A stretch of DNA of 49,266 bases, from positions 1-49,266 of the forward strand of contig CANQKX010000009.1 of NCBI GenBank assembly GCA_947624565.1. The letters run 5' to 3'. The notes beneath the pieces were generated by a model. It made no database searches and had not been told where the DNA came from. It worked only from the letters and a program-made list of their open reading frames with translations. A program made the position numbers and the translations under genes. Source of the stretch: an uncultured Bacilli bacterium. Its GTDB lineage: Bacteria > Bacillota_I > Bacilli_A > RF39 > UBA660. Below, piece after piece: positions 43,103-49,266 of the stretch; within the stretch, counting starts at the first letter, position 1, and every line of letters starts with the position of its first letter.

Positions 43103-44320
43103 ATGGATAATAAATTTCCCGTAATTGAAAAAAAATGTTATCTTATTGGACCAACAGGACCAACAGGTCCTAAAGGTGATTTAGCGGAGGCAGAAAGAAT
43201 ATCTTTAGGTAAAGTTAGTACAGTTGATTCAGAAAATGAAGCGCAAATTATAGATAATAAATCTGGATTAACTCATATTTTAGATTTTATGATTCCAAGA
43301 GGACCTAAAGGTGATGCTGGCTCTAGTGTAACAATATTAGGTTCATATAGTTCATTAGATCAATTAAAACAAAATCATCCTATAGGAAAAGTTGGAGATT
43401 CATATCTTGTTGAAGATAATTTATATGTATGGGATGAAAATACTAATAATTGGAATGATGTAGGAATAATAAAGGGACCTAAAGGCGATACTGGACCTCA
43501 AGGACCTATTGGACCTAAGGGTGAGCAAGGCATTCAAGGTCCTAGGGGTGAACAAGGTATACATGGTATTCAGGGCGATATTGGACCTAAAGGGGATACT
43601 GGGCCTCAAGGGCCTGTAGGACCTAAAGGTGAACAAGGTATTCAAGGTCCTAGGGGTGAACAAGGTATACATGGTATTCAAGGTGATATTGGACCTAAAG
43701 GCGATACTGGACCTCAAGGACCTATTGGACCTAAAGGTGAACAAGGTATTCAAGGACCAATGGGATTAAAAGGTGAACAAGGTATTCAAGGACCACAAGG
43801 GCCAACAGGACCAACTGGACCTACTGGACCATTGTTAGTTCCAACTACAGTTTTTATAAAATTTAATAATGATACATCAATTGATGAAGAAGTTAAATCT
43901 TTAGAAAGAATTCCACTTGACGTTAAAATTGGTGATGATACATCACAATTTATACTAAATGAAGAAGATAAAACTATTACATTTGTAAATAGTGGTATGT
44001 ATTATATAGATTTTATAGTTCAAGCACATCCAGTAAATGGTACTACATTTAATGATGACCATGATATGATTGCAATTGGATTTAAAAAAACTGATGAACC
44101 AACTGTATATGCAGGAGGTAGTGTATGGTGTCTAACATCAACACCTGTTAATATTATTGGAAAAGGTATTGTAAACTTACCATATGAAAATGAAGTATTT
44201 GAATTAGTAAATTTAGGTAAATATCCTATTTATTTAAATAGTCCAAATAGATCATATATGTATACTTATTCATCTTTTATAAATCCAGTAGTTAGTTTAT
44301 CTATTCAAAAAATAAAATAA
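43103..44320 (+). CDS. Collagen-like surface protein
   Basis: 405 residues, the only convincing plus-strand gene. Short Gly-X-Y stretches at 16-26 ([11 protein letters not shown]) and 67-73 flank a small domain; a second one at 74-124 ([31 protein letters not shown]) is of the type found in phage tail fibres. The main collagen stretch is 125-243, built of 12-triplet units of 36 residues: two full copies and a partial. A C-terminal domain of about 160 residues (VFIKFNNDT...[12 protein letters not shown]) looks like the jelly-roll trimerisation heads of BclA-like proteins. No signal peptide is seen. AGAAGGGATTAA precedes the start. Confidence 0.9.
43475..43750 (+). repeat. 108-bp tandem repeat encoding Gly-X-Y units
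   Basis: Two full copies (43475-43582, 43583-43690) and a partial third. Each encodes 12 Gly-X-Y triplets beginning [11 protein letters not shown]. Copies differ mainly at silent positions, so the protein sequence is more conserved than the DNA. Confidence 0.88.
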
Positions 44321-44346
44321 AAAATATAGAAAGTTCTATATTTTTT
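44319..44346. terminator. Bidirectional terminator between convergent genes
   Basis: AAAAAATATAGAA and TTCTATATTTTTT with AG between. It lies between the collagen-like gene (+) and the lysozyme gene (-) and overlaps the last codon of the first and the stop of the second. Confidence 0.88.
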
Positions 44347-45547
44347 AATTATATAATATATCTATATCTACATTACCATATATTCCATCAACTTTACCAT
44401 CACTACATAATTGCCACATTTTATAATCTTTACTATAATTTGTTTGACTTGTATAATGAGCAAGCCATATATCATAATCTGTATCAAACCAAATATTTTC
44501 TAAATATGTTTTACTACTATAAAGCATACCTTTATATCCACTTTTTTCAACAACTTTAAAAAAATCTTCTGCCATATTAGTAAGTCCAAAGAAACTTAAA
44601 TGATATTTATTAAAACTACTCCATTCTTCCCAATCAAAAGCAATTGGTAAATCAATATCGTATCCTTTTATTTGTTTTAATACCCATCTTGCGTCTTTTT
44701 GAGCTTTTTTAGATGAATCTGCATATGAATAAAAATAAACTCCTACTGGAATATTCGCCTTATTAGCGCCCTTTATATTTTGTTTAAATTTTTCATCCAA
44801 AACATATTCTCCATCTTTCCCTTTTGAATAACCAACTCTTATCATTATAAATTCTACACCAGATTCTTTTAATTTATCAAAATCAACATCACCTTGCCAC
44901 TCAGATATATCAATACCTATCTTATTATTTTGTGTTTTATAATTACTAATAACATCATTAAAATATGTATGACTTTGAGTTGTACTTTGATTTGATGATG
45001 AAGTAGAAGATGGTTCATAAACTGATAAAGTAAAATTAACTTCCTTAATATTTCCACTGCTATCTTCTGCTTTAAATACTAAAGGATAATCACCTACTAC
45101 ACTTAAATCATAATTACCCTCAATATAACAATTTGGATTGCTATCATAATTATCTCCACATAATATTGCCTCAGTTAAATCTATATTACTATCTTTTCTA
45201 ACACTATAAGTATTACTAAGCCATACTAATGGTTTTACTGTATCTACTATTTGTATATCATAATTATATTTTAATTTTATGTTATCATCATTTATAAAAT
45301 CAAACTCTATATTTTTAACACCTAACTTAGTTGTGTCAATTTTATAATCATCTACTATTTTACCATTAATACTAGTAATATAATCTGATACTTTAATATC
45401 ACTATTAAATTCTGCAGTCATATCATCTTTTAAAGTTACTTCTATTTTTGCAGTCTTAATTCTAATATAATTGTATAGTGGTATGCTTATACAAATAACT
45501 AAAATAATTATTAAAACTATTAATATAATTTTATATTTTTTCTTCAT
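44345..45547 (-). CDS. Membrane-anchored GH25 lysozyme
   Basis: 400 residues. N-terminal signal or anchor helix (6-27), two beta-rich modules (about 32-100 and 101-177; the second has the bacterial Ig-like VVGDYPLVFKAEDSSGNIKE), a Ser/Thr/Gln linker (178-195), and a GH25 muramidase domain (210-400). Catalytic-site landmarks are Asp213 (GIDISEWQG) and Asp305/Glu307 (AFDWEEW). Cleaves peptidoglycan glycan strands; probably acts in wall turnover from the outer membrane face. AGGAGA ribosome site. Confidence 0.92.
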   Translation of the reverse strand: MKKKYKIILIVLIIILVICISIPLYNYIRIKTAKIEVTLKDDMTAEFNSDIKVSDYITSINGKIVDDYKIDTTKLGVKNIEFDFINDDNIKLKYNYDIQIVDTVKPLVWLSNTYSVRKDSNIDLTEAILCGDNYDSNPNCYIEGNYDLSVVGDYPLVFKAEDSSGNIKEVNFTLSVYEPSSTSSSNQSTTQSHTYFNDVISNYKTQNNKIGIDISEWQGDVDFDKLKESGVEFIMIRVGYSKGKDGEYVLDEKFKQNIKGANKANIPVGVYFYSYADSSKKAQKDARWVLKQIKGYDIDLPIAFDWEEWSSFNKYHLSFFGLTNMAEDFFKVVEKSGYKGMLYSSKTYLENIWFDTDYDIWLAHYTSQTNYSKDYKMWQLCSDGKVDGIYGNVDIDILYN

Positions 45548-47921: not shown

Positions 47922-48091
47922 TATTATCACCATTTTTATTATGACCAAAAAAAAAGAGCTTATGCTTTTGATTTTATTACGGTTTGTAGTATAGTTAAAT
48001 TCGGAATGCAATTGATATTTAAAAATAAATCTTCTTTGAAGACTTACTTCATCAATAACATACAAATTAATTATATCACAATAATTAATTA
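47922..48091 (-). promoter_or_regulatory. Leader and promoter region of the PfkB-like and Smr genes
   Basis: Minus strand has TGTGATATAAT (a -10 box) near 48070-48080, then about 150 nt of leader ending in GCATAAGCTCTTTTTTTTT near 47945-47962, a weak hairpin with a long T-run that might attenuate. No T-box or known riboswitch sequence is recognised. Confidence 0.4.
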
Positions 48092-48126
48092 ACAAAAATA
48101 CCTAATCTCTTAAAAAGAAATTAGGT
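48092..48126 (-). terminator. Terminator after the downstream abiF-type RNA element
   Basis: ACCTAATTTCT, 5-nt loop, AGAGATTAGGT (one G-U pair), then ATTTTTGTT on the minus strand. It begins 3 bp past the 40-nt RNA element at 48129-48168, giving a defined 3' end. Confidence 0.85.
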
Positions 48127-48128
48127 AG

Positions 48129-48168
48129 ATTGACTTAAGGCTTCGTAAGTTTCTTAAATACTAATCAA
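48129..48168 (-). ncRNA. Structured RNA element, copy 2 (downstream of the AbiF-type gene)
   Basis: On the minus strand: TTGATTAGTATTTAAGAAAC then TTACGAAGCCTTAAGTCAAT. Stem ATTTAAG with CTTAAGT encloses a 3-bp CTT/AAG hairpin; TTG and CAA close the base. Matches copy 1 at 33 of 40 positions. A TATAAT box sits 4 nt upstream and a terminator 3 nt downstream, so it could be made as its own small RNA of about 75 nt as well as from read-through. Confidence 0.75.
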
Positions 48169-48195
48169 TAATATTATATGAATTATCAGTATTAT

Positions 48196-49065
48196 TTATA
48201 CATTAGGATATCCCATGATTTTTAAAATTATTCTAGCATCTATTGATTTAATAGACTCATTTAACTTATCAAACTCTTTATTAATCAAATTTATTAAGTC
48301 ATTGTAATCTTGTTCACTTAAAAATTTTTCCATGCTTCTAATTAACATATATAAATTAGTTGAATTGTTATTTACTTTATATGTGTTATCTATTAAGCTA
48401 AAAGTCATAAAAAATTTACTATGAAAAGAAAATAATCTATCAGAATGAGCACAAATATTTCTTGCTAATGTCATATTAATAAGAATTTGCTTTAATAATT
48501 TTGGTGATACATTAAATTTTTTAGCTATTTCATTTCTATCTGATTGTTTTAATAATCCATACCATCTACTTATTTGTCCAAAAGATAATATTTTAATTGC
48601 AACAAATGGAGGTATAAAACCATAAGTTTGATCATAATGCGTAATAGCTGGATGCTTACCTTTATTTTTATCTATTTCTGTATTGATAGAATCAATTATA
48701 TCATTTATATCATCTTCATTTGCTAATTCATCAAAATTTGTTTTGTTAAGATAATCTTGAATCCCATAATTCTTAGCGATGATATTTCCCATAATATCTC
48801 TTATTTTTAATTCGAATTCTAAAGCATACTTTAAAAATATAACTCTTATATTTTTATCAAAATCATATAAAGAATATATTTCATTAAAATGAACATTTTC
48901 AAAATATGTATTATCATCTTTTTTAAATACATATTTATATGTGTTAATAACAGAATAATATGAATAATTATCTATGATATTTAAAGCTATATTCTCATCA
49001 TCAATTATTACATTTTTATTTTTTAAATGTTCTAATAATTCTTCTTTATGTTTATATTCTTTCAT
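48196..49065 (-). CDS. abiF: Abi_2 family (AbiD/AbiF-type) HEPN abortive-infection protein
   Basis: 289 residues from the ATG at 49065 (MKEYKHKEELLEHL), 7 nt after GGGGGA; the longer frame to 49143 runs through the RNA element and is rejected. The catalytic HEPN-RNase motif is ARNICAHSDRLF, with Arg202, Asn203 and His207. LEFELKIRDIMGNIIAKNYG and FGQISRWYGLLKQSDR are typical of the Abi_2 family. Lactococcal AbiD/AbiF proteins stop phage by abortive infection, presumably as RNases. Flanked on both sides by structured RNA copies, one in its own leader, as expected for a protein held in check by an RNA partner. Confidence 0.85.
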   Translation of the reverse strand: MKEYKHKEELLEHLKNKNVIIDDENIALNIIDNYSYYSVINTYKYVFKKDDNTYFENVHFNEIYSLYDFDKNIRVIFLKYALEFELKIRDIMGNIIAKNYGIQDYLNKTNFDELANEDDINDIIDSINTEIDKNKGKHPAITHYDQTYGFIPPFVAIKILSFGQISRWYGLLKQSDRNEIAKKFNVSPKLLKQILINMTLARNICAHSDRLFSFHSKFFMTFSLIDNTYKVNNNSTNLYMLIRSMEKFLSEQDYNDLINLINKEFDKLNESIKSIDARIILKIMGYPNV

Positions 49066-49088
49066 ATAATATTCCCCCATAAATAAAA

Positions 49089-49128
49089 ATTGACTCAGGG
49101 CTTCATAAGTTTCCTGAGTACCAATCAA
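49089..49128 (-). ncRNA. Structured RNA element, copy 1 (abiF RNA motif-like, leader of the AbiF-type gene)
   Basis: On the minus strand: TTGATTGGTACTCAGGAAAC then TTATGAAGCCCTGAGTCAAT. Seven-bp stem ACTCAGG with CCTGAGT encloses CTT-ATG-AAG; TTG and CAA close the base. The predicted transcription start (near 49127) coincides with its 5' end. Rfam-type catalogues list a conserved RNA near abiF genes of Firmicutes; I believe this is it, from memory. Confidence 0.78.
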
Positions 49129-49133
49129 CACAA

Positions 49134-49163
49134 AGTATATCATATATTTACATATAAAGTCAA
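49134..49163 (-). promoter_or_regulatory. Promoter of the RNA element and AbiF-type gene
   Basis: Minus strand: -35 TTGACT (49158-49163), 18-bp spacer, -10 TATACT (49134-49139). Nothing recognisable lies further right to the window end except a small palindrome GCACAATTGTTGTGC near 49208-49222. Confidence 0.75.
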
Positions 49164-49266
49164 TATGTTTTTAATACATTTTTTATACTTGTAGATTATT
49201 TTTGAAAGTGCACAATTGTTGTGCAGTTAATTTTAGAATCATATATAATATCTTTCAGCAATTTAT

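Follow-up and report, generated by a model that had tools for sequence, protein, structure and literature searches.

A conserved RNA-abiF-RNA cassette and its probable role as a type III-like toxin-antitoxin system

Introduction

In an uncultured Bacilli bacterium, a gene for an AbiF-type HEPN protein is flanked on each side by one copy of a short structured RNA, and this two-sided arrangement is conserved in nearly all of the related loci compared. The whole stretch of DNA analysed, 49,266 nucleotides of contig CANQKX010000009.1, is referred to here as the window. Within it the conserved cassette, made of promoter, RNA, abiF, RNA and terminator, extends over 47963..49176 on the minus strand, as delimited by near-identical cassettes elsewhere. 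The best explanation, to which a probability of roughly 0.7 is given, is that of a type III-like toxin-antitoxin (abortive-infection) cassette with two antitoxin RNA genes.

The AbiF family consists of bacterial phage-defence toxins thought to be ancestral to CRISPR-Cas13, AbiF-RNA systems being regarded as its source. Zilberzwige-Tal and colleagues reportedly described one of them in 2025, PbAbiF-AbiFr, as an ancestor type of Cas13. That AbiF-RNA systems exist and function as toxin-antitoxin pairs is known. For the RNA family, the two-sided layout with its differing transcription logic and the solo hybrids presented below, no description was found in the literature searched, which did not include the main AbiF paper (Cell 2025). 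The cassette appears to be a variant of RNA-controlled toxin-antitoxin systems that has not yet been described, although a prior description is possible.

The abiF gene and its product

The abiF gene (48196..49065, minus strand) encodes an Abi_2 HEPN RNase-type toxin (PF07751) of 289 amino acids, preceded by a Shine-Dalgarno-like GGGGG (49074..49078, minus strand) read from the sequence between the upstream RNA and the ATG. The protein matches PF07751 (Abi_2) with an E-value of 4.7e-43 and 148.1 bits, against a Pfam cut-off of 25.6, and its PADLOC match is AbiD (E 2e-52). Within the HEPN motif RNxxAH, residues R202, N203, A206 and H207 are invariant across 23 sequences. The sequence also matches chain A of PDB entry 8VZ6 (E 1e-13), and the same chain is the sole PDB fold match with E <= 0.001 for the AlphaFold2 model of the protein (pLDDT 89.5; 8vz6_A, TM 0.73, E 5e-12). 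This entry, the PbAbiF dimer bound to its own ncRNA, is the closest solved structure, the likeness being one of protein sequence and fold. The Abi_2 match, the invariant RNxxAH and the PbAbiF fold together bear out the AbiF-type HEPN protein proposed in an earlier note on this DNA.

The two RNA copies in the window

The upstream copy (49085..49127, minus strand; 65.0 bits with the R1 covariance model) is a putative antitoxin and possible terminator or attenuator. It forms a 39-nt hairpin, GAUUGGUACUCAGG-AAA-CUU-AUG-AAG-C-CCUGAGUCAAUU, with an adjacent U-run and a folding energy of -10.7 kcal/mol. The downstream copy (48126..48167, minus strand; R1 61.3 bits) has an AU-rich stem and no U-run of its own, and adopts the same fold at -4.5 kcal/mol. 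Each is built of an outer stem, an AAA bulge of 3 nt, an inner CUU/AAG stem closed by a loop of 3 nt, and one bulged C.

The earlier note had placed two 40-nt copies at 49128-49089 and 48168-48129 (minus strand), on either side of abiF, and had counted 33 of 40 identical positions with only transitions among the differences. Both positions and counts were recovered (7/7 transitions), the runner-up 40-mer in the whole window reaching 24 matches and shuffled downstream flanks 23-26. The paired change reported in the stem, from C-G to U-A and from G-C to A-U with both sides altered, is likewise present.

A sigma-70-type promoter serving the upstream RNA and abiF lies at 49134..49163 (minus strand; 10/12 matches in the scan) and consists of TTGACT, 18 nt, and TATACT with a TG before the -10 box. 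The leader copy begins about 7 nt past this promoter, in agreement with the claim that it sits at the predicted transcription start. Ahead of the downstream RNA, a TATAAT -10 box without a recognisable -35 (48173..48178, minus strand) stands 4 nt before the start point chosen in the earlier note, as it had said, and 6 nt before the first paired base. The terminator announced behind this copy was also found: an intrinsic terminator with a 13-pair stem (48127-48099) followed by TTTTTG, spanning 48094..48127 (minus strand) and so placed that it would also end the abiF mRNA.

Conservation of the architecture and of the RNA fold

The R1 model was applied to 80 loci on genome contigs, all encoding relatives of the window protein. 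RNA was found on both sides of abiF in 78 of them, the exceptions being L094, whose start is too near the contig end, and L147, which holds an array. In these 78 relatives, 14-41 nt separate the end of the 5' copy from the ATG, and 30-40 nt lie between the last codon and the start of the 3' copy. Among 291 genomes of the same family, a set that partly overlaps the 80 loci and shares some contigs with them, relatives of 44-85% identity carry the motif on both sides whenever the contig suffices. The records of relatives are MAGs, for the most part of animal-gut origin, and bear the labels Bacilli, Tenericutes, Mycoplasma, Clostridia or Candidatus Onthousia. A paired copy in related genomes had been named beforehand as a test of the idea; it is present almost everywhere, and the RNA-gene-RNA sandwich stands as a conserved architecture.

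The fold is conserved as well. Over 37 distinct copies from relatives, 96.2% of the pair cells are standard pairs, and double changes occupy 64 cells versus 22.1 in shuffles (0/500 reach 64), with a covariation score that drops sharply once the partner is slid. Each side covaries on its own: double changes occupy 42 cells among the 5' copies, where no shuffle exceeds 21, and 74 cells among the 3' copies, where no shuffle exceeds 36. Such compensatory covariation upholds the view that structure is kept rather than sequence, and together with the two-copy layout in 78/80 loci it rules out chance.

A family of RNA outside Rfam

The earlier note had proposed the Rfam abiF model (RF03085) as a check, which did not bear it out: no match was obtained in the region or in the genome, even at E <= 10, nor in 98 genomes of the family. 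Because the positive control, C. difficile phiC2, does match, RF03085 was rejected as the identity of the RNA. No other Rfam family scored over threshold for the RNA; weak snoRNA matches in the region remained under their families' own thresholds and were attributed to chance. With neither RF03085 nor another Rfam family matching, the RNA is, judged by its sequence, a distinct AbiF-linked family. The window RNA and RF03085 are both short hairpins beside abiF genes, but the fold described here differs by its 3-nt 5' bulge, 1-nt 3' bulge and triloop. The Zilberzwige-Tal group built its own AbiF RNA covariance models (PMC12804078), and the window RNA may already be known to the group behind them.

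A broader covariance model, R2, matches upstream of 28%-identical AbiF genes in viral contigs L155 and L156, in fecal phage L176 and in L212 from another Bacilli family, the sequences of all four being among its building set; weak further candidates occur in L192 and L211. Weak R1 matches in L004/L008 were discarded, as they lie inside or antisense to a whiA-like gene.

Two copies, two transcription designs

The copies on the two sides differ consistently in the signals around them. On the 5' side, where the typical promoter is TTGACA-17-TATAAT, the -35 box is a full TTGACA (6/6) in 33/77 loci, with a 17-nt spacer in 48/77 and a -10 box present, stems have 65% GC, and a T-run of at least 4 directly adjoins the hairpin in 77/77. 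Stems of the 3' copies have 36% GC; a perfect TATAAT (6/6) precedes 57/80, and in 68/80 it lies 6 nt before the first paired base while the neighbouring bases vary. No -35 box above chance level was found for 3' copies, the best match being 3/6 or lower in 79/80. Their T-run is 3 or shorter in 80/80, and a hairpin + TTTT terminator of -5 kcal/mol or better follows in 76/80, as against 9/80 after shuffling; in the L027-L033 subclade a T-run is found behind the downstream copy too. From these signals the upstream design is like that of an antitoxin/attenuator that would be able to terminate its own transcription. The lack of a -35 makes independent transcription of the downstream RNA uncertain.

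Does the downstream copy then act as a separate RNA at all? It might instead be a 3'-UTR site, AbiF dimers binding the hairpins at both ends of the mRNA; the toxin would then restrain its own production, and each message would bring its own dose of antitoxin. The missing -35, the position of the 3' copy 30-40 nt past the last codon and just before the terminator in nearly all loci, and the two RNAs per dimer in AbiF homologues (8VZ6; PMC12737573) all suit this explanation. It is nonetheless unlikely, as the TATAAT keeps its fixed 6-nt spacing in 68/80 loci amid varying neighbours, the extra copies of L147 are full promoter-RNA-terminator genes, and the downstream RNA of L212 has its own TTGACT/TATAAT.

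The same conserved signals bear on the suggestion that an RNA-abiF unit was once doubled in tandem and lost its last abiF, leaving the downstream RNA as a functionless leader. Tandem cassettes do occur in L075, L132 and L147, and a remnant abiF start lies behind the 3' copy of L032/L184. Against this, the 3' copy is retained in 78/80 loci, covaries alone, and has a promoter and terminator design that is both conserved and unlike the leader's, which makes the suggestion quite improbable. The 3' copy is under selection now, whereas its origin may well lie in tandem duplication. Within a locus the two copies resemble each other more closely than between loci (5.6 versus 7.3 differences of 35), and their distance matrices are correlated (Mantel r 0.37, 0/2000), which is consistent with a shared partner protein or with gene conversion.

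Layouts in other AbiF lineages

When the two flanks were compared with each other in about 75 other Abi_2 loci, two more, independent sandwiches came to light. In L176/L072, a fecal phage, the RNA is nearly identical on both sides, while in L207, which belongs to another Bacilli family, the RNA has a different sequence and shows a compensatory stem change between its copies; no further abiF was found behind the downstream copy of either in the sequence examined. In the tree, the window clade is a single group (100/100), and L207 falls in the other main group together with phiC2; the sandwich layout thus has more than one origin or has disappeared from many lineages. In L212 the RNA lies downstream only, as a complete sRNA gene with its own TTGACT/TATAAT promoter. 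In L147 (1247-2950) two abiF genes stand in tandem, with one R1-type RNA between them and four behind the second, all five RNA genes having their own TTGACA/TATAAT and GC-rich terminator. Among the other AbiF loci tested, most lack a downstream copy. The flank repeats of L158/L159/L165/L166 and L155 were set aside, being shared terminators far from the RNA. Viral contigs (IMG/VR) hold no close relatives; their AbiFs are 25-32% identical and have an upstream RNA at most. The clade supplies a series of layouts (upstream only, both sides, downstream only, array, RNA alone) as well as an AbiF RNA family invisible to Rfam models. Multiplication and relocation of antitoxin RNAs around a toxin gene are part of the Cas13 origin story.

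A second, distant gene of Abi_2/AbiD type with an intact RNxCAH lies between whiA-like and trypsin-like protease genes (G000:C1:12526-13419, that is L010; L002 1222-2166). No R1 or RF03085 RNA was recognised beside it, so not every Abi_2 protein needs a modelled RNA. At least one match to the query was found in 270/291 family genomes, mostly to this second gene, which looks vertically kept and may have been domesticated.

The cassette as a unit, and the solo RNAs

Cassettes about 95% identical to that of the window, in the genomes behind L074-L077, match it only from 49180-49165 to 48066-47963, between unrelated flanks; the shared stretch begins around the -35 region and stops shortly beyond the last terminator. 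As identity is confined to the cassette, both RNAs travel with the gene as one unit. A pyruvate phosphate dikinase-like gene is found upstream of the RNA-bearing loci L026, L051, L052, L058, L065 and L069, suggesting a preferred insertion site.

Every clade abiF match has at least one adjoining RNA (31/31), and 63/124 RNA matches have no adjoining clade abiF match: the toxin depends on the RNA and not the reverse. Some of the orphan RNAs carry decayed abiF remnants; flanks of solo RNAs are of low complexity and AT-rich. The orphans were sorted with a flank classifier of 5'-type versus 3'-type, which assigned 252/256 known copies correctly in leave-one-out. Eighteen of 58 orphan copies clearly combine a 5'-type promoter flank with a 3'-type tail, and the opposite combination appears twice, weakly. 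At least four more (L287, L291, L293 and L295) are 5'/5' for the classifier, yet hybrid by comparison with their own subclade. These hybrids look like products of recombination between the flanking copies, leaving a promoter-RNA-terminator unit comparable to a solo LTR. Assembly error is a possible but improbable source of them, given that several differences distinguish the copies over a length of 40 nt. Simple recombination was rejected as an explanation covering every orphan, since many are 5'/5' leaders whose gene is truncated or decayed. The orphan RNA genes L263-L316, many of them 5'/3' hybrids, may serve in anti-addiction or in immunity to incoming AbiF cassettes.

Such solo hybrids, and cassette boundaries near the outer signals of both copies, recall a mobile element whose terminal direct repeats are the RNA copies and whose mere cargo is abiF. 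This is very improbable: compensatory changes are present in the copies, as are promoters and terminators, neither a transposase nor a target-site duplication was identified, and the RNAs accompany other AbiF lineages in upstream-only, both-side and downstream-only layouts. The orphans bear equally on a purely cis-regulatory role, the leader acting as an attenuator and the 3' copy as a stability element, in response to a signal other than AbiF. The leader position with its U-run and ribosome-binding site would suit that role, as would the structured 5' UTR of L. lactis abiD1, to which a phage protein binds (cited in PMC12373285). However, RNA genes persist without abiF, their promoter, fold and terminator intact, and an RNA always accompanies abiF; the chance of cis-regulation only is accordingly the slimmest of all those considered.

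Function and comparison with known systems

The type III-like toxin-antitoxin reading, already advanced in the earlier note, is supported by its fit with AbiFCd/RCd22 (PMC12373285) and PbAbiF-AbiFr (8VZ6), and by the fact that abiF never occurs without RNA while RNA often occurs without abiF. The C. difficile pair, from prophages phi027/phiC2, shares with the window cassette an Abi_2 HEPN toxin with an adjoining short structured RNA, a promoter at the RNA start, a terminator ahead of the toxin gene and two motif copies (PMC12373285). RCd22 neutralises the toxic AbiFCd by direct binding, in cis and in trans (PMC12373285). In that system, however, both motifs belong to one upstream transcript, whereas here one stands on each side, accompanied by signals of its own; phiC2 lacks a downstream copy. 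RCd22 matches RF03085 (PMC12373285), which the window RNA does not; with its different fold, AbiF binding is not directly transferable from RCd22. In PbAbiF, a HEPN homodimer binds one RNA per monomer (PMC12737573).

ToxIN, CptIN and TenpIN likewise have a promoter-driven RNA antitoxin and a terminator between the RNA and the RNase toxin gene, but their antitoxins are tandem repeats placed upstream only, as opposed to a single copy on each side, and their toxin fold is unrelated to AbiF (PMC5086642). The sequence signals of the present cassettes comprise a structured RNA gene adjoining the toxin, a promoter ahead of that RNA, and a terminator (U-run of at least 4, 77/77) that separates it from the toxin gene. 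The upstream-only repeat array of type III antitoxins is missing, an array being seen downstream and in L147 only.

According to the type III-like reading, both RNAs would hold AbiF inactive and a loss of transcription would free it. RNA polymerase would initiate at the strong promoter that lies at the foot of the upstream hairpin. As the U-run directly adjoins the hairpin, most transcripts probably end at the leader, yielding an RNA of about 42 nt, while a minority would continue into abiF. The downstream copy, with its own -10 box and terminator, would give a second RNA of about 70 nt, and both hairpins would also be carried by the full-length abiF mRNA. The AbiF homodimer, as a HEPN RNase binding two RNAs, would be kept inactive by the folded RNAs that occupy it, as others have reported for PbAbiF and for the AbiF of C. 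difficile. Once a phage or stress halts transcription the RNAs would decay first, and free AbiF would then cut RNA and arrest growth.

Why then keep two RNA genes? Dose, two different kinetics, binding at the mRNA ends and selection acting through the formation of solo RNAs are all possible reasons, and the many near-identical cassettes could be used to probe them. A more specific version of the type III-like reading sees a distinct AbiF architecture with two functionally different antitoxin RNA genes, a new RNA family and recombination as a built-in exit from the toxin; it is tentative, with somewhat less than even odds. If it holds, the strong upstream RNA acts as its own terminator, the downstream RNA is the weaker, -10-only one, and recombination between copies deletes the toxin and leaves a stand-alone antitoxin able to protect against later copies. 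The toxin-less hybrids suggest a simple genetic route from a toxin-antitoxin module to a free-standing antitoxin.

Three minor observations concern neighbouring sequences. A T-box leader (L179 827-1044) lies near an Abi_2 gene of another Bacilli family. In Streptococcus phage IPP38, 3' of abiF, a Spy779816-like sRNA match (L070 1952-2034) scores 41.8 bits, below the gathering score. In the window itself, positions 43103-44320 encode a collagen-like GPxG repeat protein of 405 amino acids, adjoining a GH25 lysozyme-like gene (44345-45547).
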